From assembly GCA_003134995.1 (NCBI GenBank), contig PLDC01000029.1:1-64000 (forward strand): a stretch of DNA of 64,000 bases, given 5' to 3'. Positions 17,228-51,955 of this stretch are shown here, piece by piece. The position numbers were made by a program, and so were the translations under genes. The notes beneath the pieces were generated by a model. It ran no database searches and was not told where the DNA came from. It saw nothing but the letters and a program-made list of their open reading frames with translations. The DNA comes from Acidobacteriaceae bacterium. Lineage in GTDB: Bacteria; Acidobacteriota; Terriglobia; Terriglobales; Acidobacteriaceae. Each line of letters begins with the position of its first letter. The stretch's first letter is position 1.

Positions 17228-17266
17228 CTGTGAGCCTCTGTGTTCCCTGTGTTAAAGGTTTTTTTT
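17228..17266 (+). repeat. Solo repeat related to the ends of the GxxExxY element
   Basis: The segment with CCTCTGTGTTCCCTGTGTT and then AAAGGTTTT closely resembles the inverted ends at 51437 and 51917 (CTCCGTGCTCCCCGTGGTT then AAGGTTT when read in the same sense). It lies between the barrel protein and the pqqE stop, with no GxxExxY gene beside it. Confidence 0.6.
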
Positions 17267-17275
17267 GCCGGTCGA

Positions 17276-18409
17276 TTACTCGGGATTAATCCGGTAACTC
17301 CAGAGACTTTCGGCGCGCTGCTGCAACTGCACGAATGACGTGGCGGAAACGGGCTGCGAAACCGCGTCGCCGCAATTCGCTTCGGCGAGCGCGGCTTCGA
17401 CGATGTGGTGCGCGGGAGCGAGCGAGCAGGCTGGATCGGTAGCCTCTGCGTTGCCGGTGAGCAGCAGAGCCTGGCAGCGGCAACCGCCGAAATCCTGGGT
17501 CCGCTGGTCGCAACTGCGGCAAGGTTCCGGCATCCATTCTTCTCCGCGAAAACGCTGGAATGAGGAAGACTGCTGCCAGATGAAATCGAGCGTCCTCTCA
17601 CGGACGTTTTCGAATTCGAGTCCTGGAATCACTTCCGCGGCGTGGCAGGGAAGCACCTTGCCTGCGGGATTGATGAGCATCAATCTACGTCCCCATCCGC
17701 CCATGCAGGCCTTGGGAAAGCGCGCATAGTAATCAGGGACTACGAAATCGATACGGATGCGTGCGGCGAGGCGTTTGTCAGCGGCGGCAACTGTCTCTGT
17801 AGCCTTTTCGAGTTGCACTCGTGTGGGCAGTAATGCGGCGCGGTTCTTCAATGCCCAGCCGTAATACTGGGTGTGGGCGATCTCCATGCGCTCGGGCGCG
17901 AGCTGTTCGATGAAGGCGATCATCTCCTCAAGGTGATCGATGTTCTGCCGGTGCACGACAAGATTTACAGTGAATGCGATCTTGTGGCGGCGGATGATGC
18001 GCGATAGTTCAATCTTGTGCGCATGTGCTTTCGCGCCCGCGATCCAGTTCGCAGCGTCTTCGCGAGAATCCTGAAAGCTGATCTGGATGTGATCGAGCCC
18101 GGCCTCGACCAGCGTTTGCAGACGCGACTCGGCGAGACCAATTCCTGAGGTGATCAGATTTGTGTAGAGGCCCGCTGCGCGCGCGCCCGCGATGAGTTCG
18201 GTTAGGTCCGGACGCGCGAGCGGTTCGCCTCCGGTAAAGTGCGCGTGCAGCATCCCCAACTTGCCTGACTGCTGGAAGACGTCGATCCATTCTGCGGTGG
18301 AAAGCTCCGAACTGACTGCGGCCAATTCGAGCGGATTCGAGCAATAGACGCAGTGCAGCGGGCAGCGGTGCGTTACTTCGGCGATTAGGGCTAGCGGGTT
18401 GGGAATCAT
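17276..18409 (-). CDS. pqqE: PqqA peptide cyclase (radical SAM)
   Basis: A 377-aa radical SAM enzyme that makes the C-C crosslink between Glu and Tyr in the PqqA precursor peptide in PQQ synthesis. The SAM cluster motif is in VTHRCPLHCVYCSNPLEL (CxxxCxxC), followed by FTGGEPLARPDL. The SPASM region holds extra cluster cysteines (INPAGKVLPCHAAE, MPEPCRSCDQRTQDFGGCRC). Length matches PqqE. It is the last minus-strand gene of the pqq set but is separated from pqqD by about 1.4 kb of plus-strand TA genes, so it probably needs its own promoter. No pqqA was recognised. Confidence 0.95.
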   Translation of the reverse strand: MIPNPLALIAEVTHRCPLHCVYCSNPLELAAVSSELSTAEWIDVFQQSGKLGMLHAHFTGGEPLARPDLTELIAGARAAGLYTNLITSGIGLAESRLQTLVEAGLDHIQISFQDSREDAANWIAGAKAHAHKIELSRIIRRHKIAFTVNLVVHRQNIDHLEEMIAFIEQLAPERMEIAHTQYYGWALKNRAALLPTRVQLEKATETVAAADKRLAARIRIDFVVPDYYARFPKACMGGWGRRLMLINPAGKVLPCHAAEVIPGLEFENVRERTLDFIWQQSSSFQRFRGEEWMPEPCRSCDQRTQDFGGCRCQALLLTGNAEATDPACSLAPAHHIVEAALAEANCGDAVSQPVSATSFVQLQQRAESLWSYRINPE

Positions 18410-18457
18410 CGGCGATGTGGGCGAAGAACCCTGAAAAACTAAGATTTTATTATATGC

Positions 18458-18487
18458 TTGACCGGCATTGTTACTTTAAGTAACAAT
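18458..18487 (+). promoter_or_regulatory. Promoter with perfect palindromic operator for the RelE-HTH module
   Basis: TTGACC at 18458-18463, a 17-bp spacer and TAACAA at 18481-18486 make a plausible promoter. A perfect palindrome, ATTGTTACTT-T-AAGTAACAAT (18467-18487), covers the spacer and -10. The toxin GTG at 18494 lies 7 nt after the -10, so the transcript is probably leaderless. The site is a natural binding site for the HTH antitoxin. Confidence 0.65.
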
Positions 18488-18493
18488 TAGCGA

Positions 18494-18748
18494 GTGTACA
18501 CCGTCGTCACCACAAAATCGTTTGCCAGTGCGCTTTCCCGGCTCCCGGTAAACTGGCAGAGGCGGATCGTAGCGAAGATCAAAGAAGTTGCCGCCGATCC
18601 CTACGGCAGGCACAGGAACGTTACCAAGCTTCAAGGACGTGAGGGCTACCGGCTGAGAATTGGCAACTGGCGTGTGATTTACGAATTGCACGACGACCGT
18701 CTTGAGTTGTGGGCTCTGGAACTAGGAACGAGGGGAGGAATTTATTGA
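18494..18748 (+). CDS. RelE/ParE-family toxin
   Basis: An 84-aa toxin of the RelE superfamily, likely an mRNA endonuclease. It has KSFASALSRLPVNWQRRIVAKI, LQGREGYRLRIGNWRVIYEL and a final Leu/Glu-rich strand, the typical helix-helix-sheet order with Arg residues in the core strand. It starts with GTG and is followed by an HTH antitoxin through a TGATG overlap, the toxin-first order of HigBA- or RelE/Xre-type modules. A perfect palindrome lies just upstream. It sits inside the pqq cluster in antisense orientation, which suggests insertion by transfer. Confidence 0.85.
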   Translation: MYTVVTTKSFASALSRLPVNWQRRIVAKIKEVAADPYGRHRNVTKLQGREGYRLRIGNWRVIYELHDDRLELWALELGTRGGIY

Positions 18749-19116
18749 TGCGTGTCGAAACCATAACCCGCAGGGGCAAGGAATTCGCCGTGATCCCGGT
18801 GAAGCATCTGGAGAAGCTGATGGAGGACGCGGAAATGCTTGCCGACGTAAGGGCGTACGATGCTGCAAGAGCGCGTCTTGAGAATGGCGAAGACGAACTC
18901 ATACCGCTGGAGATAACCGAGCGCAGACTGAAGGGAGAGCCCGCGCTCCGAATTTGGCGGGAGCACCGAAAGCTTACGCAGGAGCGTCTTGCGAGGAGGG
19001 CCAAGGTCTCGCGCGCATTGATTGCGGCGCTTGAAACCAAGCGCAAGGCCGGGTCTGTTAGTACTTGGAAGAAACTGGGCGCGGTACTCGATGTGAGCTG
19101 GGAGCAACTGGCATAG
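18748..19116 (+). CDS. XRE-type HTH antitoxin
   Basis: A 122-aa protein whose C-terminal half is an XRE helix-turn-helix (ALRIWREHRKLTQERLARRAKVSRALIAALETKRKAG, here in two parts: LTQERLARRAKVSRALIAAL carries the recognition helix). The N-terminal part (FAVIPVKHLEKLMEDAEMLADVRAYDAA) is the toxin-binding, Phd-like segment. The ATG overlaps the toxin stop codon. It should neutralise the upstream RelE-like toxin and repress the operon through the 21-bp palindrome. Confidence 0.85.
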   Translation: MRVETITRRGKEFAVIPVKHLEKLMEDAEMLADVRAYDAARARLENGEDELIPLEITERRLKGEPALRIWREHRKLTQERLARRAKVSRALIAALETKRKAGSVSTWKKLGAVLDVSWEQLA

Positions 19117-19183
19117 GGTTTTTCTTTGCGTAACGCTGTCGTGAAACCATGGTAAGAGGTTTAAGATTAAGAGGGGGTCGAAC

Positions 19184-19453
19184 ATGGCAACTCTCGATTG
19201 GTCCCAATGCCCCGCTGTTGAAAGCGTGCCGGGAAGAGTAAGCGGTGCATGGGTGTTTCGCGACACCCGCCTGCCCGTATCCACCGTGTTTGAGAACCTC
19301 GAAGCTGGTGCGACTGTAGATGAGATTACTGAGTGGTTTGACATCTCAAAGGAGCGGGTGATCGAGGTCTTGCAGTTCGCCGCTCGCAGCCTTGCTGCAC
19401 CGGTTCCCGCGCAGTCGGTCAGCGCGTCCTCCCGAGATGCTCATTCTCTTTGA
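19184..19453 (+). CDS. DUF433 antitoxin-like protein
   Basis: An 89-aa DUF433 protein (VPGRVSGAWVFRDTRLPVSTVFENLEAG in two parts, then ATVDEITEWFDISKERVIEV), a small winged-helix family commonly paired as antitoxin with PIN-like DUF5615 proteins. GAGGGGG precedes the ATG. Its last 17 bases overlap the next gene. Two direct TAAGAGG repeats lie just upstream (about 19154-19176) and could be an operator. Second TA module in the pqq cluster. Confidence 0.82.
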   Translation: MATLDWSQCPAVESVPGRVSGAWVFRDTRLPVSTVFENLEAGATVDEITEWFDISKERVIEVLQFAARSLAAPVPAQSVSASSRDAHSL

Positions 19454-19784
19454 CCATGGCGTACCAGCCCCACTGCTTCCGTATTTGATCGGCCACGCTG
19501 TCGTCAGAGCAAGGGGCCGAGGATGGGAGAGGCTTTCCAACGGCGACTTGCTGGCACAGGCGGAGCAGGCCGGGTTCGAAGTTTTTCTTACTGCAGACAA
19601 GAATATTCGATACCAGCAGAATCTCGCTGGCCGCAAGATAGCCGTTATCGTCTTGAGCACTCCGCAGTGGCCGATTGTTCGATTGCACGTCGCAAGAATT
19701 GCGGCGGAAGTGAATGCGGCTACCCAGGCAGCTATGTCGAAGTTCAGATTCCGTAAAAGTTATGCTGCCGACGGAGTGGGCTAA
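19437..19784 (+). CDS. DUF5615-type PIN-like toxin
   Basis: A 115-aa PIN-like nuclease domain. MLILFDHGVPAPLL holds the first acidic residue, FEVFLTADKNIRYQQNL the second acidic cluster, and KIAVIVLSTPQWPIV the following strand, as in DUF5615 (VapC45-like) toxins. The frame is open to 19392, but the ATG at 19437 begins the domain and overlaps the antitoxin end. Its stop codon overlaps the convergent pqqD stop by 4 bp, so the junction is very tight. Confidence 0.8.
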   Translation: MLILFDHGVPAPLLPYLIGHAVVRARGRGWERLSNGDLLAQAEQAGFEVFLTADKNIRYQQNLAGRKIAVIVLSTPQWPIVRLHVARIAAEVNAATQAAMSKFRFRKSYAADGVG

Positions 19785-20071
19785 TAATCCACGATCCGCT
19801 TGTGGCGCAACTGTTCTAGGAACTGGCTGATGTCGGTGCGAATCTTTGCCGGGTCAGCGTCGGCGAACTGGGCCTGCAATTCCTGGATGATTTGGCTGAA
19901 AGTGCGCTGGCCGTCGCAGCGCTCCAAGACTTGGCGGCCTGTGCCTTGCAGCTTGATAGCGCCTTCGGGAAAAAGGATTACGCGGACTTCTTCGGTGCCG
20001 GTCTTCTGTTCGGGACCCCAGCGGCAACCGGTTGCCAGGCGCGGCTGGCTGTTGTCTTCGGGAGGGGGCAT
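19781..20071 (-). CDS. pqqD: PQQ biosynthesis peptide chaperone
   Basis: A 96-aa PqqD, the carrier that presents PqqA to PqqE. The family pattern is visible in VRVILFPEGAIKLQGTGRQVL, RCDGQRTFSQIIQELQAQF and the C-terminal ISQFLEQLRHKRIVDY. It follows pqqC with a 176-bp gap and ends against the convergent PIN-like toxin. In most clusters pqqE follows directly; here it is 1.4 kb away. Confidence 0.92.
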   Translation of the reverse strand: MPPPEDNSQPRLATGCRWGPEQKTGTEEVRVILFPEGAIKLQGTGRQVLERCDGQRTFSQIIQELQAQFADADPAKIRTDISQFLEQLRHKRIVDY

Positions 20072-20162
20072 GCTAGAGCTGGCCCTCCAAGTGTCGTGCG
20101 CTGCACGCGAAAGCAGGTTCCTCGACTCCGCATTGCGATTGATGAAGCCAATCGCAATGCTC

Positions 20163-20230
20163 CGCTGGGAATGACAAAGTTTGAAATGGGGATTGAAAAA
20201 GCCGTCCGCCCCCCTGCGCTCGGAATGACA
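20163..20230. repeat. Pair of partial hairpin-repeat ends
   Basis: CGCTGGGAATGACA (20163-20176) and CGCTCGGAATGACA (20217-20230) are direct repeats that resemble the right end of family A (CGCTCGGGATGACA). They lie in the pqqC-pqqD spacer and look like degenerate half-elements. Confidence 0.4.
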
Positions 20231-20247
20231 GGTTTTCTTGCATCATG

Positions 20248-21015
20248 CTAAACGCCCTCGATACGAAATGCGCCGGGTGGCGGCCAGCCCGGTTGCACGT
20301 AGGCGAAGTACAGGGCGTCGAGCTGGGCCCACAGGATGTCGCACTTGTCGCGCAGGGCTTGGATCGCGAGTTCTTGCTCGGCCCGCGTCTTCGCATTGTC
20401 GTAGACATAGTTCACGGCGAACTGCGAATCTTCGGGCGCCTGATAGAGTCTGGCTTCGAAATAATCCAGACCTCCTGAGAGCCAGGGATAGTGCTCGCGC
20501 AATTTTTCCACGCGCAAAGTGATCAGCTTCGTGGAAAACAATTCGGTCAACGAGGACGCGACTGCCTCGAGCAGAGTACGGTTGCGAACGATGTTCAGAT
20601 ATTCGTTGACCGCGAAGCGGGTTGCCGGAAGAATGCCTTTGCCGGCACGCACCGATTGCGGATCAAGTCCCGTGGCTTCGGCCAATTTTACCCAGCGTTT
20701 GATGCCTCCTTCACTGGTCGCGTCGCCATCGTGGTCGACAATGCGCTTGCGCCACGCTCGCCGAAAGACCGGGTCGGGCCCGCGCGAGAGGATGATCGAG
20801 TCTTTGATTGGAATGATCGATTGATAGTAATAACGATTCAGCGCCCAGGCCTGCAGTTGACCGCGGGTGAGCTTGCCGTCGTGCATCAACAAATGAAACG
20901 GGTGCTTGTGATGGTAGCGCTCTTCGCCCGTCGCTTGTAATTGCGCGCGCAATTCTTCGAGCGATAGCAGCGGTGCCGGCGCTGCGGTTTCATTCTCTAC
21001 AGGGTGAACTGCCAT
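20248..21015 (-). CDS. pqqC: Pyrroloquinoline-quinone synthase
   Basis: A 255-aa cofactor-less oxidase catalysing the last ring-closing, eight-electron oxidation in PQQ synthesis. It shows RYHHKHPFHLLMHDGKL, RYYYQSIIPIKDSIILSR and KRIVDHDG, the helical all-alpha PqqC pattern with active-site His, Tyr and Arg residues. Its start overlaps the pqqB end by 19 bp, so both are translated from one mRNA. Confidence 0.95.
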   Translation of the reverse strand: MAVHPVENETAAPAPLLSLEELRAQLQATGEERYHHKHPFHLLMHDGKLTRGQLQAWALNRYYYQSIIPIKDSIILSRGPDPVFRRAWRKRIVDHDGDATSEGGIKRWVKLAEATGLDPQSVRAGKGILPATRFAVNEYLNIVRNRTLLEAVASSLTELFSTKLITLRVEKLREHYPWLSGGLDYFEARLYQAPEDSQFAVNYVYDNAKTRAEQELAIQALRDKCDILWAQLDALYFAYVQPGWPPPGAFRIEGV

Positions 21016-21920
21016 CCATCCTCCGCGATCTCCCAGCCCGCGTCCCGCACTGCGCGATGTTCGGGACTTGCCTCGTCGAGCATGGGGTTGGTGTTGTTGA
21101 TGTGTAGAAATATTTTACGCGGATGGCGTACTCCCGCCAACCTAACGAGTGTTTTTTCTACCGGGATGTGGCCCATCTGTTGGGCTGTTTGGCCTCCGCC
21201 CTGAACGCGAATCAATTCGTCATCGCTCCAGAAGGTGCCATCGAAGAGCAAAACGTCGCAAGCATCGAGCTGATCGAGAAGGCGGTCGTCGAGATGAGGA
21301 ACGGCGGGCATATATGCGAATCGTGGGCCCGAAGGCGCAGTAACAATGAATCCCAGGGAAGCTTCGCCGAGCGCGAGTTGAGACTGCCGCTCCGCCGTGA
21401 CGTAAGCCGGATAGTGCGTCCCCAAAGAAAGCGCACTGCAGCGCATGCCGGAGTCTTCGTCTCGGGAATTGAGAAGCGGGAAGGGAAGCTCTAATCCGAA
21501 ATCGATCCACTTTGCCTGGTTCGCCACGCGCTGCAGCATGCCGAACATAGAATTGTCTTTAACTAGAATGCTGCGGACGGAAGCTGTGGCGTAGATGCGA
21601 AGCGGCTGAAGTTCGCGCAACAGAAGAAGTCCAAGAACGTGATCGACATCGGCGTTACCCAATACCACGCCCGCGATCGGCGACTGGCGCAATCCCTCAC
21701 GGGGGTGCAATTCCGGCGTGAATTCGATCTGCGTTCGCAGGTCCGGAGATGCTCCCAGCAGAAACCAGGAGCGACCGTCCTCGGTAATTGCAACTTGCGT
21801 CTGCGTGCGCGGCTTGCCGTGGAACGTGCCCGCTCTAACGGCGCGGCAATTGGCGCAGTCGCAGTTCCACTGCGGAAACGCGCCTCCGGCGGCTGAACCC
21901 AGAATCTTTACCTGCATCAT
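20997..21920 (-). CDS. pqqB: PQQ biosynthesis protein PqqB
   Basis: A 307-aa metallo-beta-lactamase-fold protein proposed to hydroxylate the crosslinked tyrosine in PQQ synthesis. It begins VKILGSAAGGAFPQWNCDCANC and has the reduced metal motif NADVDHVLGLLLLREL plus LLFDGTFWSDDE and IFLHINNTNPML, all typical of PqqB. It is the first recognised gene of the pqq set; upstream (21921-22207) I find no convincing pqqA with an ExxxY core on the minus strand. Confidence 0.94.
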   Translation of the reverse strand: MMQVKILGSAAGGAFPQWNCDCANCRAVRAGTFHGKPRTQTQVAITEDGRSWFLLGASPDLRTQIEFTPELHPREGLRQSPIAGVVLGNADVDHVLGLLLLRELQPLRIYATASVRSILVKDNSMFGMLQRVANQAKWIDFGLELPFPLLNSRDEDSGMRCSALSLGTHYPAYVTAERQSQLALGEASLGFIVTAPSGPRFAYMPAVPHLDDRLLDQLDACDVLLFDGTFWSDDELIRVQGGGQTAQQMGHIPVEKTLVRLAGVRHPRKIFLHINNTNPMLDEASPEHRAVRDAGWEIAEDGWQFTL

Positions 21921-22195
21921 CTCTGGTGAGTTTACCGCTTTTCGGCAAACCAGGTTTCAGGAAGGAAAATACGACTGAAGCACGAAAGGATGACAAAACT
22001 TGCAAGGTTTTCACGATGGAATGCAGCAAGTATGAAAGATTCTGCAGGTTTTCGAGGGAATTCTGGCCGTTACTCCGCTTTGTTCTTGCCTTTGCACCGG
22101 TCTCGCTGCATACTTCAAATGGCCCGCGCAGAGCGGGTTTCGGCCCTCCCCCCGGCCCTCCCCGCTTCTTCCATTCTCCAAATCCACTTCGGGTT

Positions 22196-22201
22196 TATAA
22201 T
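22196..22201 (+). promoter_or_regulatory. -10 box TATAAT, 6 nt from the start codon
   Basis: A perfect TATAAT ends 6 nt before the ATG at 22208. With normal spacing the transcript would begin at or next to the A of the start codon. The -35 match is weak. Confidence 0.5.
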
Positions 22202-22207
22202 CCCGGC

Positions 22208-23119
22208 ATGCGCTTTCGACCGGCGCAAGTCGTCATCTTCACCATCGCGTGCCTGTTATCGGACAACATGCGAGTTCAGGCGCAGGATGCGGCTCCTGAA
22301 GCCGAAGCCGCGAAGCCCTGTTCGCCATCCGCCTCTCATGGCAAGCAGCCTTCTGATTCTGAAATGTCGGTCGTCGGAGTGACCTTTTCAGGTTTCCTTC
22401 GAATGCCGGTTTCAGACCAAGACGAAATTGCGGCATCGATCAAAGAGAGAACCTACGCAGACTCCATCGATCACCCTGAGTGGGCAACCGACGAAGCGCT
22501 GGAGACTGCGACGGTTGGCTGGCAGAACCATGGCTACCTCAAAGCTCGTACCAATGGTTATGCGACAACGCTGAGTAGCAATCCCGCTGGACGGCGCGTC
22601 GCTCTTAGCGTTCACGTGGATGAGGGACCGCAATATAGGCTGGGCGGCATCGCATTCCAGCACAACAGGGCGATTGCAAACGTCGCAGCTTTGCTCGGTG
22701 TTTTTCCGATCAAAGAGGGCGACGTCTTCAGCAAGGAGACGGTTGCGGTTGGTTTGGACAATCTGCGCAAGATTTATGGAGAACTTGGCTATGCCAGCTT
22801 TAGGTCCGTCCCGGAAACAAGGTTTGACGAAGCGAAGAAGCTGGTTTACCTCGATATCGACATGGTCGAGGGCCAGCAATTTATTGTGAATGATATAAAC
22901 ATTCTGGGGTTGAACGAAAGTGCTCGGCTACAATCGTTGCAGGACTTTTTGTTGAAACCGGGTCAGATTTATAACGAAAGACTTGTGGAGTTATCCCTGA
23001 AACGGGAGCGTGGCTCCGTGCTCCCCAGTTGTGGATGCAGCGATCGCCCAGCGTTGGACCTAGACGAAAAAACCGGGCTAGTCACGCTTAGGTTCGACTT
23101 CCGCTCCTGCGGCCATTAG
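22208..23119 (+). CDS. Secreted POTRA-domain protein without barrel
   Basis: A 303-aa exported protein (signal VVIFTIACLLSDNMRVQAQ) with tandem POTRA-like modules: VALSVHVDEGPQYRLGGIAF, then VFPIKEGDVFSKETVAVGLDNLRKIYGELGY and KLVYLDIDMVEGQQFIVNDI. These match the POTRA repeats of BamA/TamA, but the gene stops before any beta-barrel. It could act as a periplasmic partner of an outer-membrane assembly protein. A longer upstream frame exists, but the signal peptide and TATAAT support the ATG at 22208. Confidence 0.7.
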   Translation: MRFRPAQVVIFTIACLLSDNMRVQAQDAAPEAEAAKPCSPSASHGKQPSDSEMSVVGVTFSGFLRMPVSDQDEIAASIKERTYADSIDHPEWATDEALETATVGWQNHGYLKARTNGYATTLSSNPAGRRVALSVHVDEGPQYRLGGIAFQHNRAIANVAALLGVFPIKEGDVFSKETVAVGLDNLRKIYGELGYASFRSVPETRFDEAKKLVYLDIDMVEGQQFIVNDINILGLNESARLQSLQDFLLKPGQIYNERLVELSLKRERGSVLPSCGCSDRPALDLDEKTGLVTLRFDFRSCGH

Positions 23120-23122
23120 AAT

Positions 23123-23452
23123 CTAGCTCTGCCCCGCCGCCGCCGCACAACGCAGCGGATCTACATCCCAAAGATTGGTGTCGACGGAAAGATTCTCCAC
23201 TCCAACTTCGCCGGCCATTTCGGTTCCAGGCTTGCCGCACCACACGATGCGAAATTGCGCCTTGGTGCCGAGGTACAGAACATCTACTGTGTCTCCCGGC
23301 TTCAGTTGAGCGTCTACGCACTGCAGGGTTGCGCCACGGCCGCTGATGGTGCGCAGGCTGGCGGGTTGGGTGAAGGGGCGGGAATGAGCGTCCATGCCCC
23401 AAATCTGGACGGGAAGATCCACGAAAACGCGCGACTGACGGCGCCGATCCAT
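23123..23452 (-). CDS. PilZ-domain protein
   Basis: A 109-aa single-domain PilZ protein, a likely cyclic-di-GMP receptor. It opens with MDRRRQSRVFVDLPVQIWGMD, the RxxxR-type binding motif, and continues as a beta-barrel (LKPGDTVDVLYLGTKAQFRIVW) with the second loop VENLSVDTNLWDV. The frame is open to 23504, but the ATG at 23452 fits the family. It ends 3 bp from the convergent POTRA gene. Confidence 0.78.
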   Translation of the reverse strand: MDRRRQSRVFVDLPVQIWGMDAHSRPFTQPASLRTISGRGATLQCVDAQLKPGDTVDVLYLGTKAQFRIVWCGKPGTEMAGEVGVENLSVDTNLWDVDPLRCAAAAGQS

Positions 23453-29151: not shown

Positions 29152-29160
29152 ACCCCATGC

Positions 29161-38827: not shown

Positions 38828-40555
38828 CTACTTCGCATCATCAGCAGGGTCGATCTTAAACACATTGTTCGTCATATCGCTTTCAGGCACGCTGCCGTCG
38901 TTCACCACGATTTCTTCTGGCTGATTCGGAACTTCGACGCGAATCACAGCGTTCCTTTTGCCGCGTATCACCAGCTGTTTTACGATCACTCCGCCCACAA
39001 ACTTCACCGTGACTGGAACCTCCGCTCCTGCCGCTCCTAAATTCTCCACCGTGATAGTGAGCATGTAATTATCCGGCGAAGTTTTGCGCGAGAACGCGGA
39101 TGCCACTTTGAAATCAGGCAGGCCGCGGTCGCGATTAACCCAGTCGTCGAAGAACCACTCCAGATCGCGCTGTGTCTGCGCCTGAATCAAGCGTTGCATG
39201 TAAGAAGGCTCGTTGTCCTGATCCGCATGGTAAGACGCGAGTGCCTTTTTCAGCGTCGGATCGCCGATCATCTCGCGCAACATCCACCACACACACATCG
39301 CTTTGCTGCGGTAAAGTTCCTCGTCGTGAGTGTTGATCAAAGAATGGATTGCCTCATCTTCCGATCGAGGCGCCGTCGTCTGCTTTTCCTTCTCGAAAAC
39401 ATTAAGAGCAGAGGTATGCAATGCCATGTAATCGAGCGCAGCCTGGCGTCCACTCTGATGTTCGAGATAGAGTGCCTGCGCGAAGTGAGCCAAGCCCTCG
39501 TCGATCCATGGCCGTGGCGACGAAAAAGCCGCGTGGGTTAACTGGTGAGCGGCCGTAAGCCCCGCCAGCTTTGGATCGGTGCCGGTGAGCGCCGTCAACA
39601 ACAAAGGCCCGCTCTCAAACGGCGCAGCATTCGGATCGGCAAGGTCAGCTGTTTCAGCCTTGCCTCGAAGCGGTCCGAACCATTCGGTCACCAACGGGAC
39701 TACCTTCTCCGCTGCGTCGGCGTAATTTGTGGCCGCCGCGCCGTGGCCATGAATGAAATGGACCGCTATGTCCGCACGATCTATAAGTTCGTAATTTGCA
39801 ATAACGAAGGTCGGCACGGTCGCCCCTACGGACCGTTGCGTGCAATCCGCCACGAACTGATGCTCCAGTTGATGTGTACTTGCACATGCGGTCGCATTCA
39901 CTAGAAGCTCCGGGGGTTCCTCAGCATCATTCTGTAATTCGATCTGCAAGTGCAGCGAAGATGCACGCGCTCTTTCTTTCCACCGGCCCAAGACCTCCGC
40001 CAGGCTTCCATCTGCAAGGCTCGCATCCTCGGCGTCTATCGGATACCAAGTCACATATCCAGCTCCGCGCACCGCGGTGAATGCCGTGCTGATCTGGTCC
40101 CAGTCGGTGCTATTCGCGATGCTGTCTGGCGTTCCAATCCGCGTGAGTCGCGTCGCATCGAGCACGATCACACCTTCGTAGGCGACTTCCAATTCGAGAG
40201 CGCCATTGTGCGGTACTGCTGCGGGCAAAGTAATCACAGCTTCCGAAAGCGCGCCGGTGTGATCGATATCGGAGTCGTATGGTTGCGAAGCGAACTGCAG
40301 TGGCTTGCCGCCAGCCTTAATGGAAAGCCAGTTCAGCGACGAAGAAATCTGCAGCACGGCAATCTTCTGCGACGCAGAAGAATCATTCCGCAGCATGATC
40401 TTGCCGCGAACAGCCAACCGTTGCTGCCGGGGCTCGACGCGAACATTCAGATCGTAGCTGGTAAAAGTGAAAGCTTCGCGGTCGAGAGCAAAACCATTTG
40501 CGGCGAAAGCGAAGAAAATGCAGAGCACGGAAACATACAACCTGTGCAACTTCAT
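38828..40555 (-). CDS. Secreted M1-like peptidase homologue with altered HExxH
   Basis: A 575-aa exported protein (signal YVSVLCIFFAFAANGFA) with the M1 aminopeptidase layout: an N-terminal beta domain (DLNVRVEPRQQRLAVRGKIML), a central gluzincin-like domain and a C-terminal region with LEWFFDDWVNRDRGLPDF. The expected HExxH reads HQLTH (TAAHQLTHAAF), so the catalytic Glu is Gln, while the third ligand helix WIDEGLAHFAQAL is kept. It probably binds zinc poorly or lacks peptidase activity. Its ATG overlaps the rlmB stop (ATGA), so translation is coupled to rlmB. Confidence 0.82.
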   Translation of the reverse strand: MKLHRLYVSVLCIFFAFAANGFALDREAFTFTSYDLNVRVEPRQQRLAVRGKIMLRNDSSASQKIAVLQISSSLNWLSIKAGGKPLQFASQPYDSDIDHTGALSEAVITLPAAVPHNGALELEVAYEGVIVLDATRLTRIGTPDSIANSTDWDQISTAFTAVRGAGYVTWYPIDAEDASLADGSLAEVLGRWKERARASSLHLQIELQNDAEEPPELLVNATACASTHQLEHQFVADCTQRSVGATVPTFVIANYELIDRADIAVHFIHGHGAAATNYADAAEKVVPLVTEWFGPLRGKAETADLADPNAAPFESGPLLLTALTGTDPKLAGLTAAHQLTHAAFSSPRPWIDEGLAHFAQALYLEHQSGRQAALDYMALHTSALNVFEKEKQTTAPRSEDEAIHSLINTHDEELYRSKAMCVWWMLREMIGDPTLKKALASYHADQDNEPSYMQRLIQAQTQRDLEWFFDDWVNRDRGLPDFKVASAFSRKTSPDNYMLTITVENLGAAGAEVPVTVKFVGGVIVKQLVIRGKRNAVIRVEVPNQPEEIVVNDGSVPESDMTNNVFKIDPADDAK

Positions 40556-45113: not shown

Positions 45114-45176
45114 AGGGATAGGAACATTCTAGCAGTCGGGTAGGCGAGCTCTTAACGTCGTAGCAATCGCCAGAGC

Positions 45177-45995: not shown

Positions 45996-46155
45996 GGAGG
46001 AAATTATAGCAGTGCGTTCCCGCGATGGGCCTTCGCTAAATTACCGTGTTTCAGAGGATGGTCACGGCGTCCCAAGGATGCGCGTGTAGCCGCCGGCAGG
46101 GGGCACGACCGCGCGCTCGCACCACGCGGGATGCGATCCTATCATCAATCTCGGC

Positions 46156-46800
46156 CTACCCGACCTTAGGCCGCACCATCTCGAATCGCTGCGTCGTCCG
46201 CGTGTATTGAATTCCGCCCATGCGTCCGATCATATCCAGCGAATTCCGGTCCAGCTTGCCATCTTTGAGATGTGCGTCACTGATGTGAATCGAGACGATC
46301 GCGCCGATCACGAGGCTGCTGCTGGTCGGCGCAGGCGAGAAATCGAGAATCTGATGCAGCTTGCACTCAAAGCTGACCGGAGACTCAGCTACCCTCGGCG
46401 GACGAACAATCGTCGACGCCTGCGGAGTAACCTTCGCCAATTCGAATTCGTTCACCGACGGATCATATTCACCGCTGGTTAAGTTCATCGCCTCGGCCAA
46501 TTCGTAAGTGACGACGTTGACCACAAATTCTCCAGTGTCACGAATGTTTCGCAAAGTGTCTTTAGGTTCTCCACGGACGCCTTCTCCACGGCCAGCTTTC
46601 GCCTTGGGCTGCCGAAGTCCGGGCGCAAAGGCCAGTAACGGCGGGTCGACGCACACGCAATTGAAGAACGAAAACGGCGCAAGGTTCGGCTCTCCCGATA
46701 AGCTGATCGTCGAGACCCACGCTATCGGCCGCGGCGCCACCGAGTTGAGCAGGATGCCATACAGTTCGCTGTGCGAAAGGTTCGAGGGCGTGACAATCAT
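46156..46800 (-). CDS. Flavin reductase-like (flavoredoxin) protein
   Basis: A 214-aa FMN-binding split-barrel protein. LLNSVAPRPIAWVSTISLSGEPNLAPFSFF is typical (shown here as PRPIAWVSTIS and NLAPFSFFN), followed by DTLRNIRDTGEFVVNVVTYE and VIGAIVSIHISDAHL. Such proteins reduce flavins or bind FMN in electron transfer. Single gene, 26 bp after the deacetylase gene in the same direction, so the pair may be cotranscribed. Confidence 0.87.
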   Translation of the reverse strand: MIVTPSNLSHSELYGILLNSVAPRPIAWVSTISLSGEPNLAPFSFFNCVCVDPPLLAFAPGLRQPKAKAGRGEGVRGEPKDTLRNIRDTGEFVVNVVTYELAEAMNLTSGEYDPSVNEFELAKVTPQASTIVRPPRVAESPVSFECKLHQILDFSPAPTSSSLVIGAIVSIHISDAHLKDGKLDRNSLDMIGRMGGIQYTRTTQRFEMVRPKVG

Positions 46801-46826
46801 TCCATCGAGTATAACTTTTCACGCGC

Positions 46827-47840
46827 CTACTTCGTTACGCCGAACACTTCCTTCGCCGCAATCACCGTATTGCTGTGGATGGTCACGGTGTCTTCCACGT
46901 TCTGCGCGTAGCCGCCGGCGTAGGTCACCATCACAGGAAGATTGCGCGCGCGCGCCACGCGAAAGACAAGCTCATCGCGTCGCTTCAATCCGTCGATCGT
47001 CAACGAAAGCCCGCCCAGTTGATCTTCACGGTAAGGGTCGGCGCCAGCCACATAGCACAGCAGATCAGGCTCGAATCGCCGCAGCCCAGAACTCAGAGTG
47101 TTGTCGAGCCACGCGAGGTAGTCGTCGTCGCCAATGCCATCGGGCAGATCGACGTCGATCGAGGAATGCGGCTTCCACAGCGGATAATTATTGTGCTGAT
47201 GCAGCGAAATGGTGAAGACCTCGCCGGTGTGCGCTCCGCGCATTTTGCCCGGAAGCACGCCAGTCCGCAGAGGCGACCCCGGCATCGACGGCCCCGCTGA
47301 AGGCAACGGCTCGCCTCCAGTCCGCGTTCCCGCAAAAATCGCCGCTGTGCCGTTACCCTGGTGCACATCGCAATCCACGGTCATTGCGTTGCGAATCTTG
47401 CCATCACGCTGCAGCCGGCGGATGGCGACAGCCACATCGTGAATCATGCAAAATCCCTCTCCGTGGTCGGGAAAGGCGTGATGAAATCCGCCGCCAATGT
47501 TAATGCTGACGCCGTCGCTTAACGCCTGCCGCCCGGCCAGGATCGATCCTCCGGCCGCCAGCCAGAATGACGCCACAAGTTGAGGCGAAAAAGGAATTTC
47601 AAGCTCCCGTTCTTCGCGCGGACTGAGCGTGCCGGTCTTCAGCTTGTGCACATACTCCTGGGTATGAACCAGCAGAATGTCCTGATCGGTAGCCGGTTTA
47701 GGGTCGAGAAAGTCGCCCGCTTCGGCGACGCCCTCCGCTAGGAGTCGGTCGCGGATGCGCCGGAATTTTTCAGCAGGGAAGACATGCTCGCCGATGGGCA
47801 AGTAGTAGCCGTCGCTGTAGATCAGCTTGAAGGGGAGCAT
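46827..47840 (-). CDS. Histone-deacetylase-family protein (AcuC/amidohydrolase type)
   Basis: A 337-aa zinc-dependent deacetylase of the arginase-deacetylase fold. Motifs: NIGGGFHHAFPDHGEGFCMIHDVAVAI (cut here as GGGFHHAFPDHGEGFC), VDCDVHQGNGTAAIF (Asp and His zinc ligands), CYVAGADPYREDQLGGL (Asp ligand) and TYAGGYAQNVEDTV. About 25 extra Gly/Pro-rich residues (GGEPLPSAGPSMPGSPLRTG) interrupt the loop after the DVHQGNG motif. The ATG at 47840 fits the family start. The substrate may be an acetylated small molecule or protein. Confidence 0.88.
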   Translation of the reverse strand: MLPFKLIYSDGYYLPIGEHVFPAEKFRRIRDRLLAEGVAEAGDFLDPKPATDQDILLVHTQEYVHKLKTGTLSPREERELEIPFSPQLVASFWLAAGGSILAGRQALSDGVSINIGGGFHHAFPDHGEGFCMIHDVAVAIRRLQRDGKIRNAMTVDCDVHQGNGTAAIFAGTRTGGEPLPSAGPSMPGSPLRTGVLPGKMRGAHTGEVFTISLHQHNNYPLWKPHSSIDVDLPDGIGDDDYLAWLDNTLSSGLRRFEPDLLCYVAGADPYREDQLGGLSLTIDGLKRRDELVFRVARARNLPVMVTYAGGYAQNVEDTVTIHSNTVIAAKEVFGVTK

Positions 47841-47885
47841 GGGGCTACGCTTCCGATGACAGTTCGTGCCTGGTTTCAACGCGCC

Positions 47886-47985
47886 TGTCATCCCGAGCGC
47901 AGCGAGGGACCTTGGTTCCTGCCTGACGCATCAATACTGCCGCCGCGCGCAAACACCAAGATCCCTCGCAGTGATCGGGATGACA
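47886..47985. repeat. Dispersed hairpin repeat, family A, copy 4
   Basis: TGTCATCCCGAGCGCAGCG at the left and CGCAGTGATCGGGATGACA at the right; the inner arms are GACCTTGGTTCCTGCCTG and CGCGCAAACACCAAGATC. Right arm has more changes than in copies 1-3. It lies between hspR and the deacetylase gene. Confidence 0.87.
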
Positions 47986-48044
47986 GCATTTCCTTAGACG
48001 CCGTTCCCTCTACCGCGGTTCCCTTAAGATGACACTGAAAACGA

Positions 48045-48446
48045 CTACCGCTTCTTCCCCGGCTGCACCGACGGTATCACCATCGCCCTTCTCACCGGCA
48101 CGATCGCGCCCTTCGCCGGATCGGCCGCCGCATTCGCGCGCGTCAGCACTTCCTCCTGGATATACTGCACGAACTCGTGAATCTGGCGCTGCATCTCCTC
48201 CATGCGCTCCCGCATTTGCAGGATGATCGCCATGCCGCTGATGTTCACACCCAGATCGCGCGCCAGTGACAGGATGAACTCCAGCCGCTGTAAATCTTCG
48301 TCGGTGTAAAGGCGCGTGTTGCCTTCGGTGCGCGATGGCTTCAGCAACCCCTCGCGCTCGTAAAGGCGCAGCGTCTGCGGATGAATTCCATACATCTCGG
48401 CTACGGCGGAAATCATGTAGGCGCCCTTCGATTTCCGTTTAGTCAT
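48045..48446 (-). CDS. hspR: MerR-family heat-shock repressor (HspR-like)
   Basis: A 133-aa MerR-type regulator with AYMISAVAEMYGIHPQTLRLYEREGLLKPSR (cut here as ISAVAEMYGIHPQTLRLYER), NTRLYTDEDLQRLEFILSLARDLG and a coiled-coil dimer helix. The pattern fits HspR, which represses dnaK-type operons. It is on the same strand as dnaK and dnaJ but lies some 3.5 kb beyond dnaJ, separated by a permease, a cupin and the GxxExxY element. I find no perfect HAIR (CTTGAGT-N7-ACTCAAG) site; the dnaK promoter palindrome at 55594 is the best local candidate. Confidence 0.82.
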   Translation of the reverse strand: MTKRKSKGAYMISAVAEMYGIHPQTLRLYEREGLLKPSRTEGNTRLYTDEDLQRLEFILSLARDLGVNISGMAIILQMRERMEEMQRQIHEFVQYIQEEVLTRANAAADPAKGAIVPVRRAMVIPSVQPGKKR

Positions 48447-48563
48447 AGGTCTCCTCCGGTCGATTTTAGAGCAGGACGGGTTTTCTTCCTAATTTCACCC
48501 CGGCAGAATTCACGCCGAACTCTTTTCAGTAGCAAAGCATCCAACTTGCGGAGGTATTTATTT

Positions 48564-49016
48564 ATGGACGAAAATAATGCTATCAGTGTGGTCGAAAATC
48601 TTATTGAGACGTGCAAAGACGGTCAAAAGGGCTACCAGGATGCAGCAGTTCACGCAAAGCGCTCTGACCTGAAGACCTTTTTTAACGAGCAAAGTCTGGA
48701 GCGGGCTCGCTTTGCAGGTGAACTGGAATCGGAGCTGATACGGTTGGGCAAGCCCGACAAGAAAGTTTCCAGCTCGGTCTCCGGGAGCCTTCGCCGCGCC
48801 TGGATCGATACCAAAGTCAGCCTTGGCGGCGGAGATAAGACGATCCTCGAGTCGGTTGAGGCCGGAGAGGATAATGCCAAGGAAAGCTACGAGAAGGCAG
48901 TCGCTGGCGATTTACCGGAAAACATCGCGCAGATTGTTCGCCGGCAGGCGGCTAGCGTTCAAAGAGCGCATGACAAGGTAAAGAGCCTGCGAGACGAGGC
49001 CAGAGCTGCTGCATAG
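48564..49016 (+). CDS. PA2169-type (DUF2383) four-helix-bundle protein
   Basis: A 150-aa ferritin-like helical protein: NAISVVENLIETCKDGQKGYQDAA, LKTFFNEQSLERARFAGELESELIRLG and ESVEAGEDNAKESYEKAVAGDLPENI match the PA2169/DUF2383 family. Its role, often linked to stress, is uncertain. GCGGAGG precedes the ATG at 48564. An intrinsic terminator follows at 49078. Confidence 0.86.
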   Translation: MDENNAISVVENLIETCKDGQKGYQDAAVHAKRSDLKTFFNEQSLERARFAGELESELIRLGKPDKKVSSSVSGSLRRAWIDTKVSLGGGDKTILESVEAGEDNAKESYEKAVAGDLPENIAQIVRRQAASVQRAHDKVKSLRDEARAAA

Positions 49017-49077
49017 TTCGGAAATAGTTAGGAAATAGTGCGGAAAAATGCATTTCGGAAAAATGTCTAAACAATAA

Positions 49078-49109
49078 AGAGGGCCGGAATATTCGGCCCT
49101 CTTTTTTTG
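49078..49109 (+). terminator. Intrinsic terminator
   Basis: AGAGGGCCG pairs with CGGCCCTCT around a short AT-rich loop and is followed by a run of Ts. It ends the DUF2383 gene and also serves as a bidirectional barrier for the convergent permease gene. Confidence 0.85.
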
Positions 49110-49125
49110 AAGATGCCGGGCCGAC

Positions 49126-50595
49126 TCACGCCGCCGGTTGAGGTTTTTCCGTGGAGGCGGCCCATCCATGCGGCTTCAGCAGGTGATTAATGCCGTAAGC
49201 CACAAAGCCCGCCGCGATCAGAATCATGCCGAAGGCAAACGAACTCATGTTCCAAACCTGCTCATGCTCGCTGCGGATGATGGAAAACGCCAGCAGCAGC
49301 ATCGGCGGGATGCCAATCGCAATCGCCCCGAACAATCCCCCGGGAACGCGGAATGGACGCACCAACTCCGGTTCGCGGAAGCGCAGCACCGCTAACGCGA
49401 CGAACTCCAGCAGCAAGCTGAAGCCATACAGAAGAATGTCGAGTGTCACCAACCGGGCAAAACCCAGTCCGAGGCACATCGCCCAGCACGTGGCCAGCGC
49501 GATAATCGCAACCCAGGGCGCGCGCGACTTCTTCTGCAGCTTGGCGAAGATTCCAGGCAGCATGCCATCTTGCGCCATGGCCAGTGGCAGCCGCGAGTAG
49601 CTCATCACCAGCGCGTTGAACATGCCAAAGGCGCTGATGATTCCTCCCAGCACCACGCCGATGCGGAGCAGCGGTCCGCCCAGCAATCCTGCGATGTCAG
49701 CCCACGAGCCAGTCTCCCACGCGGTGGAAGTTAACCCCGTCATCCACATGGCGGCAAACGGCAGCACGTAGCTGACAGCCACGATGCAAACCGCAACCAG
49801 CATCGCGCGCGGATACGTCCGCTGCGGCTTCTCGACTTCCGTCGCGATGGTCGAGGCATTATCCCATCCCATGTAGTTCCACATGCAGATCAGCAGCCCA
49901 CCCAGAATATCGACGCTCGAAGTGGTGGGCTTGGTGACGGCGTTCGCCAGAGCGCCAATCTTAAACGGAGCAATCAGAACGATCGCGACAAACGGCGCCG
50001 AAAGCGCGAAGAACAGCCACAGCGACGTGAGCGAAACCACTTTCACGCCCGCAATGTTCAACACCGCGCAAGCAATCACCACCGCCAGCGCAACCCACCA
50101 TCCGCGATTTCCCTGCTGGAACCACGGGAACATGCGGGTCAGGTAAGCCACGAACAGCGTGGGATAAATCGCCATATCGAAGATCGACGCGACCAGCGAG
50201 AGCCAGGCTTCCTGGAATCCCCAGAAATTTCCCATGGCGCGGCGCACCCATGCGTAGTAGCCGCCTTCATAAGGCAGCGCGCTCGAAAGCTCGCCGATCA
50301 TAAAAGCCGTAGGCAGGCTCCAGAGCAGCGGAGTGAGCAGCAGAATCAGAATCGCACGTCCGTAGCCGGCTCCGTGAACAATGTCTTCCGTGCCGTAGGT
50401 TCCGCCTGACACCATAAAGAAGGTGGCGGCGACCAGAGGCCACAACGTGAGGCGGACGAATTTCTTTGGGGCAATCGGGTTGGGGGCAATCGGGTTGGGA
50501 CCGATCGGGTTCGGGGCGTTCAGGTTCCGGTTGGGTACGGCGGCGAGAGGCTGGGGATTTTCGAGTTGTTGACGCGGGGCGCTAACTGTTGCCAA
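49126..50595 (-). CDS. APC-family amino acid permease
   Basis: A 489-aa transporter with twelve hydrophobic segments, e.g. LTLWPLVAATFFMVSGGTYG, YGRAILILLLTPLLWSLPTA, LGGLLICMWNYMGWDNASTI and VSYVLPFAAMWMTG. GTYGTEDIVHGAG is the unwound TM1 substrate site of APC carriers. The start is TTG with GAGGAGG about 13 nt upstream; a stop lies just before it, so no longer start is possible. The N-terminus carries a short tandem PNPI(A/G) repeat. Substrate unknown. Confidence 0.9.
   Translation of the reverse strand: MATVSAPRQQLENPQPLAAVPNRNLNAPNPIGPNPIAPNPIAPKKFVRLTLWPLVAATFFMVSGGTYGTEDIVHGAGYGRAILILLLTPLLWSLPTAFMIGELSSALPYEGGYYAWVRRAMGNFWGFQEAWLSLVASIFDMAIYPTLFVAYLTRMFPWFQQGNRGWWVALAVVIACAVLNIAGVKVVSLTSLWLFFALSAPFVAIVLIAPFKIGALANAVTKPTTSSVDILGGLLICMWNYMGWDNASTIATEVEKPQRTYPRAMLVAVCIVAVSYVLPFAAMWMTGLTSTAWETGSWADIAGLLGGPLLRIGVVLGGIISAFGMFNALVMSYSRLPLAMAQDGMLPGIFAKLQKKSRAPWVAIIALATCWAMCLGLGFARLVTLDILLYGFSLLLEFVALAVLRFREPELVRPFRVPGGLFGAIAIGIPPMLLLAFSIIRSEHEQVWNMSSFAFGMILIAAGFVAYGINHLLKPHGWAASTEKPQPAA
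50462..50515 (-). repeat. Tandem 15-bp repeats coding PNPI(A/G)P units
   Basis: The bases gggttgggggcaatc recur with small changes in the 5' end of the permease gene, coding NPIGP, NPIAP and NPIAP in tandem before the first membrane helix. Three to four units are visible. Confidence 0.7.
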
Positions 50596-50920
50596 TTTCT
50601 ATGTCTTCCTCCTCAAGCGACTCACTCTCAGCTACTCCGCAGCGGCTGGTCGTTCCTGGTAAAGCATGCTCGAGTTTTCTGGTTTGTTTAGATTCCAGAA
50701 ATCGCGCTGGAGTTAGTTCGCACGTTAGAGATTACGGGAATTTTCCACAGATGCAAGAAAAATGTTGAGATTTTTCTGAAAAGTTTTGTCAGAGAGGCCA
50801 GCGACGGAGGTAACGACTTCAGGTGAATGGCTCGGCTGAAATTATATCTTCGGCAAAGCGTTGTTGCCGCCGGCTCTACCGCCGATTTATGATGCCGCCA
50901 CCGCACTTGGAGGCGGACCA
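50596..50920. promoter_or_regulatory. Divergent spacer between the permease and the cupin gene
   Basis: 325 bp without a gene. It holds GAGGAGG of the permease on the minus strand, an AT-rich middle (ttttctgaaaagttttgtc) and ATTATAT about 75 bp before the cupin gene, both plausible promoter parts. I see no RNA gene or repeat here. Confidence 0.4.
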
Positions 50921-51385
50921 ATGAAACAACCGTTCCTAGTTGTTTTTGCTGTCGCGCTTGTAGTCGTCATTGCTGTTCCTGCGCTCACCCAAAATGCTTT
51001 CACTGCCGATCAAGTGAAATACGGCCCCGCTCCGCCGTTTATGCAACCCGGTGCGCAACTGGCCGTTCTGGAAGGGAACCCGATGGCTGATTCCGGTGAT
51101 TTCACCATCAGGCTCAAATTGCCGGACGGCTACAAAATCGCTCCTCACTATCATCCCGCCCGCGAAAACGTCACCGTAATATCCGGCACCCTCAAGGTCG
51201 GTATGGGAGATCAGTTCGACGCCACCAAGATGATGAGCTTCGGCGCAGGCAGCTTCGCTTATCTCGACCCAAGCATGCATCACTATGCCGCCGCTTCTGG
51301 AGAAACGGTGGTCCAGATCCACGGCATGTCGCCGGTCAAGTTCAACTACATCAACCCGTCGGACGATCCGACCTCGAAGAAATAA
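50921..51385 (+). CDS. Secreted cupin-domain protein
   Basis: A 154-aa exported cupin: signal VVFAVALVVVIAVPALTQ, then the cupin strands DGYKIAPHYHPARENVTVISG (metal motif HxH..E), VGMGDQFDATKMMSFGAGSF and YLDPSMHHYAAASGETVVQ (second His). GGAGGCGGACC precedes the ATG at 50921. A terminator follows at once. A similar secreted cupin is at 60233, on the minus strand. Likely metal-binding; substrate unknown. Confidence 0.88.
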   Translation: MKQPFLVVFAVALVVVIAVPALTQNAFTADQVKYGPAPPFMQPGAQLAVLEGNPMADSGDFTIRLKLPDGYKIAPHYHPARENVTVISGTLKVGMGDQFDATKMMSFGAGSFAYLDPSMHHYAAASGETVVQIHGMSPVKFNYINPSDDPTSKK

Positions 51386-51387
51386 AG

Positions 51388-51419
51388 GAAGGGCCCGGCT
51401 CTCGGGCCCTTCACTTTTT
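51388..51419 (+). terminator. Intrinsic terminator of the cupin gene
   Basis: GAAGGGCCCG and CGGGCCCTTC form a 10-bp perfect stem with a 5-nt loop, followed by ACTTTTT. Confidence 0.88.
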
Positions 51420-51436
51420 AGGAAGCAAGACAAACC

Positions 51437-51955
51437 TTAACCACGGGGAGCACGGAGTTACACGGGGTAAACCCCTACTTTTCCCAAGTGTCGCCATCAA
51501 CCATGCGCTTGATTCCGTTGCGCAGGCTCTTCACATTGAAATTAATAAGAAGCCCGACTCCTATCCCGCTCAATCGCATGTAGGACAAGATCTGTGCTTG
51601 GTGCACCGGATGGATCGCCTCCACGCTCTTCACTTCAACGATAACCACGTTCTCAACGACCAAGTCAATCCGATATCCAAGCTCAATCTTTTCCCCGTCG
51701 AACACCACGGGCAGTCCAACTTGACAGGCGACCGCGAATCCACGCTTTCTGAGTTCATGAGCGAGGCAGGCTTGATACGCACTTTCCAGCAATCCAGGCC
51801 CGAGCACCGCGTGGACATGCATCGCGGACGACACGACCGCGCCAGAAACCTCGTTAACCCGAACCGCTTTAAGGCAGGAAACGCGCGCAGCTATAAGAAC
51901 GGTCTAACACAAATTGAAAGGTTTACCCCGTGAAACCCCGTGCTCTCCGTGGTAA
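51437..51955. mobile_element. 519-bp element with long inverted ends around a GxxExxY gene
   Basis: The left end (51437-51475: TTAACCACGGGGAGCACGG, then AGTTACACGGGGTAAACCC) and right end (51917-51955: GGTTTACCCCGTGAAACC, then CCGTGCTCTCCGTGGTAA) are inverted copies with about four differences over 36-39 bp. Between them lies one gene, coding a GxxExxY protein, filling nearly all of the space. No transposase is present, so the unit would move in trans or by recombination. A related solo end is at 17228. Confidence 0.7.
51475..51834 (-). CDS. GxxExxY protein (PD-(D/E)XK-like)
   Basis: A 119-aa protein of the GxxExxY family, named for GLLESAY (here within VLGPGLLESAYQACLAHEL). LGYRIDLVVENVVIVEVKSVE has the D..ExK pattern of PD-(D/E)XK nuclease folds, and LLINFNVKSLRNGIKRMV is the usual end. 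Homologous frame continues upstream (NEVSGAVVSSAMHVH) with no good start codon, so the true N-terminus may use a non-ATG start or be lost. The stop codon falls at the edge of the left inverted repeat. The function of the family is not established. Confidence 0.82.
   Translation of the reverse strand: MSSAMHVHAVLGPGLLESAYQACLAHELRKRGFAVACQVGLPVVFDGEKIELGYRIDLVVENVVIVEVKSVEAIHPVHQAQILSYMRLSGIGVGLLINFNVKSLRNGIKRMVDGDTWEK

Follow-up and report, generated by a model that had tools for sequence, protein, structure and literature searches.

The stretch of DNA analysed here, the window, comprises 64,000 nucleotides from an Acidobacteriaceae bacterium (contig PLDC01000029.1 of assembly GCA_003134995.1). 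It carries a GxxExxY gene enclosed by two inverted copies of a 43 base pair (bp) unit, and a third copy stands elsewhere in the window. The same unit is dispersed through the source genome, related units lie at the edges of GxxExxY genes from many phyla, and the type of the repeat tends to follow that of the resident gene. On balance, we favour the explanation that gene and repeat form a two-part system resembling that of repetitive extragenic palindromic (REP) sequences and REP-associated tyrosine transposases (RAYTs), in which the GxxExxY nuclease spreads a cognate unit built of three heptamers.

The initial annotation had described inverted ends at 51437-51475 and 51917-51955 around the gene, with the gene stop at the edge of one of them. 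Both ends are present, and the stop codon (51475-51477) directly abuts the left unit. A weight matrix for the 43-bp unit, built from 27 genome copies that included the solo at 17220 and excluded both cassette ends, gave three matches in the window and no others (Table 1), and zero matches in the reversed window. From the placement of these matches, each cassette end is one whole unit, and the solo end previously reported at 17228-17266 is likewise a single unit. The gene does lie between inverted ends as described, but with the 43-bp units the full cassette extends from 51431 to 51962 and is 532 bp long rather than 519 bp. Using the core pattern with up to two mismatches, four matches were obtained in the window, the three units and an unrelated one at 40063, compared with 0.27 expected; none of 100 shuffles got to four. 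An Rfam search of 51300-52050 returned no match. Reading along the frame of the window gene, the first ATG, GTG or TTG met is the GTG at 51834. This codon falls within helix 1, and the frame homologous to relatives extends upstream of it. At 51892-51894 on the minus strand, the window copy has ATA where the close homologue P0002 has its start methionine in the alignment.

Table 1. The GxxExxY gene and the three 43-bp units of the window.
Feature	Position	Strand	Remarks
Left 43-bp unit	51431..51473	+	adjoins gene stop codon; three heptamers, spacing 9-10; 53.4 bits
Right 43-bp unit	51920..51962	-	inverted relative to left unit; upstream of gene; 41.7 bits
Solo 43-bp unit	17220..17262	-	without GxxExxY gene; just behind an open reading frame end; 57.3 bits
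GxxExxY gene	51475..51849	-	of the PD-(D/E)XK nucleases; matches the family over 51499-51849; frame stays open upstream as far as ~51903

Alignment of the 27 dispersed copies gave the consensus AAA-cCTTtAaC-ACRGRG-Ga-CACRGRG-gNt-CACRGGG-TAAA-C. The unit has sharp borders, information dropping to about zero on either side of the 43 bp, and it is not palindromic, with three CACRGRG heptamers at a spacing of about 9 bp. Ends found only once elsewhere in the genome would, by the initial annotation, have spoken against the proposal, and this is not the case. In the source genome (5.62 Mb), the core pattern occurs at 82 sites, 69 exact, including the three of the window, and 13 with one mismatch, while a reversed-pattern control gave 0 sites. 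The solo end of the window is related to the cassette ends, as had been proposed, but is one of these 82 sites and no isolated relic. Twenty of the 27 solos checked fall outside predicted open reading frames (ORFs) of at least 100 codons, and many are at most 30 bp from an ORF edge. A greedy ORF call had placed 7 of the 27 inside ORFs, but on re-reading these were at the margins of ORFs or within frames that are themselves doubtful; no reading frame spans the core of the solo L005. We saw no rule in the orientation of the 27 solos relative to neighbouring ORFs. Convergent pairs of this repeat type (type A) with less than 2 kb between them number just two in the source genome: the GxxExxY cassette, and a mini-pair on C9 whose starts are separated by 44 bp.

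A second GxxExxY gene in the source genome has a different heptamer, CGCCGAG, and the genome has one GxxExxY gene per repeat type. The CGCCGAG type occurs at 16 sites with up to two mismatches, the gene's own ends counted in, and at three mismatches there are 34 sites, the control having 2. This type also forms nine convergent pairs that span 68-130 bp and contain no full gene (mini-pairs). The sequence between the arms varies from one mini-pair to the next, and spacer bases are often unlike between the arms; in gene-end pairs, agreement is 0.52 in the spacers vs. 0.88 in the heptamers. As the spacers differ between arms and agree less than the heptamers do, it is the heptamers, rather than a hairpin, that appear to be the conserved element.

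The window protein matches PF13366 (PDDEXK_3) with an E-value of 1.1e-39 (135.8 bits, cut-off 22) and TIGR04256 (GxxExxY) with an E-value of 1.3e-40 (138.4 bits, cut-off 35). In Pfam it matches only a PD-(D/E)XK family, and in NCBIfam only GxxExxY. Residues D62, E72 and K74 are invariant across 30 sequences and correspond to the conserved D and E-x-K of the PD-(D/E)XK core. The predicted structure (predicted local distance difference test score 95.9) has PD-(D/E)XK nucleases as its nearest folds, its neighbours being Cas4-like, Hjc-like and restriction-like nucleases. By these matches and the modelled fold, the window protein belongs to the PD-(D/E)XK nuclease family, as the initial annotation had suggested from a PD-(D/E)XK pattern, and nuclease activity is predicted. 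A sequence search against solved structures returned no match. The family is very common: one search scored 8000 candidates, and every one was a match. In phages, tblastn gave no GxxExxY match, and seven plasmid records contain one. Among plasmids, the 24.8 kb NZ_OY725952.1 of Bacteroides finegoldii (L420) carries a GxxExxY gene with a CACAGAG-type end. A protein 81% identical to that of the window (P0118) comes from a record named Candidatus Binatia bacterium, which could reflect interphylum transfer or a binning error.

We then compared the edges of GxxExxY genes generally, in a main set of 111: the 2 genes of the source genome, 29 same-phylum loci and the best 80 of at least 580 confirmed relatives. 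These relatives come from named genomes that span many phyla, archaeal ones among them. They were found with one GPGLLE-like peptide pattern, which leaves the remaining branches of the family under-represented. In de novo scoring of 107 genes against 494 control ORFs, both inverted repeats (p 4e-40) and heptamer triples (upstream p 3e-44, downstream p 4e-38) were strongly enriched. The 99th percentile of the controls was exceeded by 62 of 107 genes for the inverted repeat, 28 of 107 for the upstream triple and 0 of 107 for the downstream triple; the triple scores hit a ceiling, and their distributions nevertheless differ strongly from those of the controls. When one generic heptamer was applied without mismatches, a triple in the expected orientation was found upstream of 62/110 genes and an inverted one downstream of 59/107, whereas distant flanks, at 900 bp, had 1-2 of 97-105. 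Allowing up to two mismatches, these counts rose to 92/110 and 86/107, with 3-6 of 97-105 in the distant flanks. At this threshold 98/106 genes have a triple at either edge, and 76/106 have triples at both edges in inverted orientation. Triples in the opposite orientation also exceed background (20/110 and 30/107 at two mismatches), an excess that at several loci stems from tandem or nested units. In a second set of 40 genes from chosen same-phylum genomes, also at two mismatches, 29 have a triple at either end and 20 at both, compared with 0/39 in the distant control. The expectation that GxxExxY genes usually have such ends is thus borne out in both sets. The two ends of a gene also resemble each other: they have a common spacing pattern in 57/70 genes, where shuffling predicts 12.3 and never exceeded 26 in 2000 rounds, and a heptamer likeness of 0.876 vs. 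0.73.

Gene and repeat also occur together at the level of genomes. In the window's own phylum (297 genomes), 89 genomes have both, 17 the gene only and 24 the repeat only, while 167 lack both (odds ratio 36, p 1.7e-35), with 5158 generic repeat sites vs. 14 in a reversed control. In a second phylum, that of G342 (source of locus L127 and titled Phycisphaerae), the corresponding numbers among 294 genomes are 105, 34, 29 and 126 (odds ratio 13.4, p 1.7e-23), with 4663 sites vs. 12. Single sites in these counts may be a gene's own ends; requiring at least 10 sites gave 65/41/7/184 (odds ratio 42) and 67/72/12/143 (odds ratio 11), respectively. Copies per genome range from 1 to 858. Of 30 named mixed-phylum genomes picked for having the gene (locus L118 excluded), 26 have sites, and a Methanosarcinales archaeon has 230; four of these genomes have only one or two sites each, and one of the four also has a control match.

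The type of the dispersed repeats tends to follow that of the resident gene. In 13 genomes, scored by spacing and heptamer base 2 with the genes' own ends and some genes of multi-gene genomes left out, the mean fraction of dispersed copies matching the resident gene was 0.503 vs. 0.188 when permuted (0/10000 permutations). Spacing follows the protein tree, with 45 changes vs. 59.3 for shuffled labels (0/200), and the heptamer also does better than shuffled labels. Paralogues within a genome can differ in end type (three types in G038, two in G141), and two genes of G173 share their upstream end type.

A finer correspondence was found between individual residues and bases. Residues are numbered by the 117-residue family match, in which residue 2 lies at the start of helix 1. 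Among 94 genes, heptamer base 5 was best predicted by residue 2 (z 19.4), followed by residue 3 (9.7) and residue 98 (8.3). Threonine occupies residue 2 in 43/64 G-type but only 1/30 A-type genes, and lysine or asparagine occupies residue 3 in 16/30 A-type vs. 2/64 G-type genes. In 47 genes outside this discovery set, threonine at residue 2 was again unevenly distributed, 26/33 vs. 2/14 (p 6e-5). Restriction to clean C-R-C heptamers gave 40/59 vs. 1/27 in the discovery set and 23/29 vs. 2/14 in the new set (p 1.3e-4). Removing near-duplicates from the new set left 16/22 vs. 2/14 (p 0.0016), and keeping of these only the rows below 70% identity to all discovery rows gave 15/18 vs. 1/12 (p 9e-5). 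Lysine or asparagine at residue 3 was weaker in these latter rows, 0/18 vs. 3/12 (p 0.054). With 127 genes collapsed at 85% identity, residues 2 and 3 led again (19.5 and 11.7, the median of 112 columns being 0.4). A fourth heptamer reaching into the coding start was considered as the source of the covariation and rejected: G-type genes lack alanine at residue 2 even with a CGC heptamer, and codons are split for both glutamate (GAG 13, GAA 10) and lysine (AAA 8, AAG 4). Heptamer base 7 (T) tracks many protein columns at once, which we took as a clade signal and did not use. From the covariation, residues 2-3 probably read heptamer base 5, suggesting that the protein itself contacts the heptamer.

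Occupancy of the window site was compared among congeners. Eight congeners have the two neighbours together on a single contig, and the cassette is missing from every one of them. The gap is 84-193 bp in six of them (G313, G304, G307, G314, G300 and G312), four of which have another repeat pair at the site, and ~1.1-1.2 kb in G301 and G305, where neither a tblastn match to GxxExxY nor a triple with up to one mismatch was found. In G309 and G299 a GxxExxY gene stands next to dnaJ with a different left neighbour. A separate dispersed repeat lies at 53242-53300 of the window, with 76-95% identical copies in many congeners, and a TCATCCTGAG-like pair, perhaps of the same kind, is found at the site of the window cassette in four congeners. 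A second variably occupied site, in another genus, lies between genes that we take to be sufD and sufS. There, G283, G038 and G149 have a cassette, G114 and G173 an inverted mini-pair, and G251, perhaps also G189, a remnant unit; neither cassette nor unit was found in G105 and G181, and the 0.8-1.2 kb present there in G141, G157 and G227 contain no GxxExxY gene and no triple. The emptiest of all these sites (G313, G304, G105, G181) carry no unit. Within the orthologue trio G000, G309 and G299, the ratio of nonsynonymous to synonymous substitution rates (dN/dS) is 0.05 and 0.09, the third pair being saturated in dS. Judged from these sequences, the window-site gene is old, under purifying selection and not recently moved. 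The initial annotation had proposed that the cassette is mobile, which agrees with its absence from the eight congeners and the variable occupancy of the second site, but not with an old, selected gene present once per repeat type. Those three properties make it look more like a resident RAYT-type gene with spreading repeats than a jumping gene.

Repeat copies may travel in other elements, as two genomes illustrate, and singlets may be decayed pairs. G097 has ~27 near-identical N-terminal GxxExxY gene fragments. In 26 near-identical element copies (L240-L265), a shortened GxxExxY cassette lies between a transposase, presumably IS5-like, and the right end. As the 26 fetched fragments are inside a transposase-bearing element, they point to hitchhiking, and we rejected their copy number as a sign of recent self-mobility. 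In G613, a burst of near-identical short elements (L340-L359, L380-L399, L401-L413) has CTTRTCCTTACCCAC ends and carries a triple-repeat pair. By eye, the element has inverted ends of roughly 16 bp and an apparent 9-bp duplication. Over long stretches of the chromosome its copies all lie on the same strand, and these runs are not tracked by the guanine-cytosine (GC) skew. Replication-linked insertion was not upheld as an explanation of the runs, since the repeating unit is another element and the GC skew does not match; G087 showed no clear orientation runs.

In the system we favour, a GxxExxY nuclease of the PD-(D/E)XK family would recognise a short non-palindromic unit of three heptamers spaced by ~9 bp. 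Such units would exist as inverted pairs around the gene, as gene-less inverted pairs (mini-elements) and as single units. The resident nuclease would process paired units, which would spread through intergenic DNA without target duplication, and the gene itself would mostly stay in place meanwhile. We infer the binding and cutting of the units by the nuclease, their spread by this route and all of the strand chemistry. More tentatively, bacteria and archaea may share a distinct class of mobile repeats with GxxExxY proteins as its founding enzymes, possibly defined by a lone PD-(D/E)XK nuclease, triple-heptamer ends, a partly readable residue-base code, gene-less pairs moved without target duplication, and a chemistry unlike that of DDE, HUH, serine or tyrosine transposases.

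Several observations weigh against such a system. Seventeen of the 106 gene-bearing genomes of the window's phylum have no site of the generic pattern and 24 of the 191 gene-less ones have one, while no recognisable end was found for 8/106 genes of the main set and 11/40 of the second. Because of kinship among the genomes and among the genes, for which no correction was applied, the p-values overstate independence, and only three phylogenetically supported independent pairs bear on the covariation, too few for a formal test. The dispersed sites of G267 do not match its single gene (0/85), and type matching also fails in G075 (0/1), G114 (0/2) and G132 (0/4). The ~85 triple sites of G267 (contigs C3, C4, C8, C14, C16 and C17) lie in many cases in short clusters; the gene cognate to them may have been lost or be absent from the assembly. 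The target duplications that had been sought were not detected: 70 flank pairs, with boundaries set at the first heptamer, did not clearly exceed permuted pairs. Near-identical gene copies were met only as the G097 fragments inside the presumably IS5-like element, and the sole recent burst examined, that of G613, is of another element with its own ends. Finally, PD-(D/E)XK enzymes are known to cut rather than transfer strands, so the join step would need host functions.

The lack of target duplication would equally suit repeats that are functional binding sites of the nuclease, such as operators, Chi-like sites or protection sites for repair or defence, maintained by selection and spread by recombination, with a nuclease that does not mobilise them. 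Purifying selection on the gene, the Cas4-like, Hjc-like and restriction-like fold neighbours and the sharp conservation of single units over 43 bp would fit as well. However, gene-less inverted mini-pairs at many unrelated sites, the wide range of copy number between genomes and the empty orthologous sites resemble spread rather than fixed sites, and we regard this account as unlikely. A homing-like nuclease, which the initial annotation had suggested, would cut resident units or empty targets, with repair copying the gene cassette into the break. A lone gene of the PD-(D/E)XK family that directly adjoins its ends, together with one variably occupied site, would fit such an element. Yet a split target would leave one half on each side, whereas here a whole inverted unit stands on either side; the G313, G304, G105 and G181 sites have no unit, the presumed place of cutting, and the many gene-less copies would go unexplained. 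Homing is therefore disfavoured, and we consider it quite improbable.

Another transposase might move the repeats with the nuclease gene as cargo, as the shortened cassette riding in the G097 element and the repeat pair riding in the G613 element would illustrate. Gene-by-gene matching of repeat type and residue-base covariation would not be expected of cargo. Also against it, convergent type-A pairs under 2 kb in the source genome are limited to one mini-pair and the GxxExxY cassette, and we hold this explanation to be very unlikely. Heptamers are simple, purine-rich words, which might raise the concern of chance or compositional artefact. The few sites in the reversed controls of both phyla and the low counts in the distant flanks make that concern negligible. 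The two-part system of nuclease and cognate unit remains the explanation we favour.

The TIGR04256 and PF13366 entries, as displayed, give no biological role, and the pairing with repeats is new relative to them. In the open literature we found no paper on this pairing; most subscription papers and all preprints fell outside that scope, and prior notice is possible. The family is named in passing in two papers. One of them, PMC12085832, lists a gene for a GxxExxY protein in the genome of Chrysochromulina parva virus, and use of the name therefore extends beyond prokaryotes. Pairing with a cognate repeat would give this common family a concrete, testable substrate and would explain a class of short intergenic repeats.

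Like insertion sequences and miniature inverted-repeat transposable elements, the cassettes have inverted ends and exist in gene-bearing and gene-less forms; unlike them, they have no internal transposase gene, target duplication was not found in the flank pairs compared, and no near-identical full gene copies were met. A single nuclease gene whose presence at a site varies is shared with homing endonuclease genes, which differ in having a split target instead of two whole inverted units and in lacking the many gene-less copies. Unlike Cas4 and RecB-like nucleases, the window protein has no sequence match to a solved structure. The closest working analogue is REP-RAYT. RAYTs are HUH transposases related to IS200/IS605, and REPs are palindromic with a GTAG motif, as stated in PMC3116915 and PMC8266576. 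According to the same sources, single-copy RAYT genes stand beside type-specific repeats, these repeats are found either singly or as inverted doublets, and the HUH enzyme uses REPs in single-stranded form. The GxxExxY system resembles REP and REP-doublet (REPIN) systems with their RAYT (TnpA-REP) in its dispersed intergenic singlets and inverted doublets, in a resident gene beside its own repeat type, and in type-specific pairing. The window gene, in contrast, encodes a PD-(D/E)XK protein where a Y1 HUH transposase would stand between the repeats, and where a REP would be a palindrome with a GTAG or similar tag, the unit here consists of three heptamers and has no palindromic form. On both counts, this is no member of the REP-RAYT systems. 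By analogy it may work like one, and it would then be a counterpart to REP-RAYT made from an apparently unrelated enzyme and apparently unrelated DNA units.

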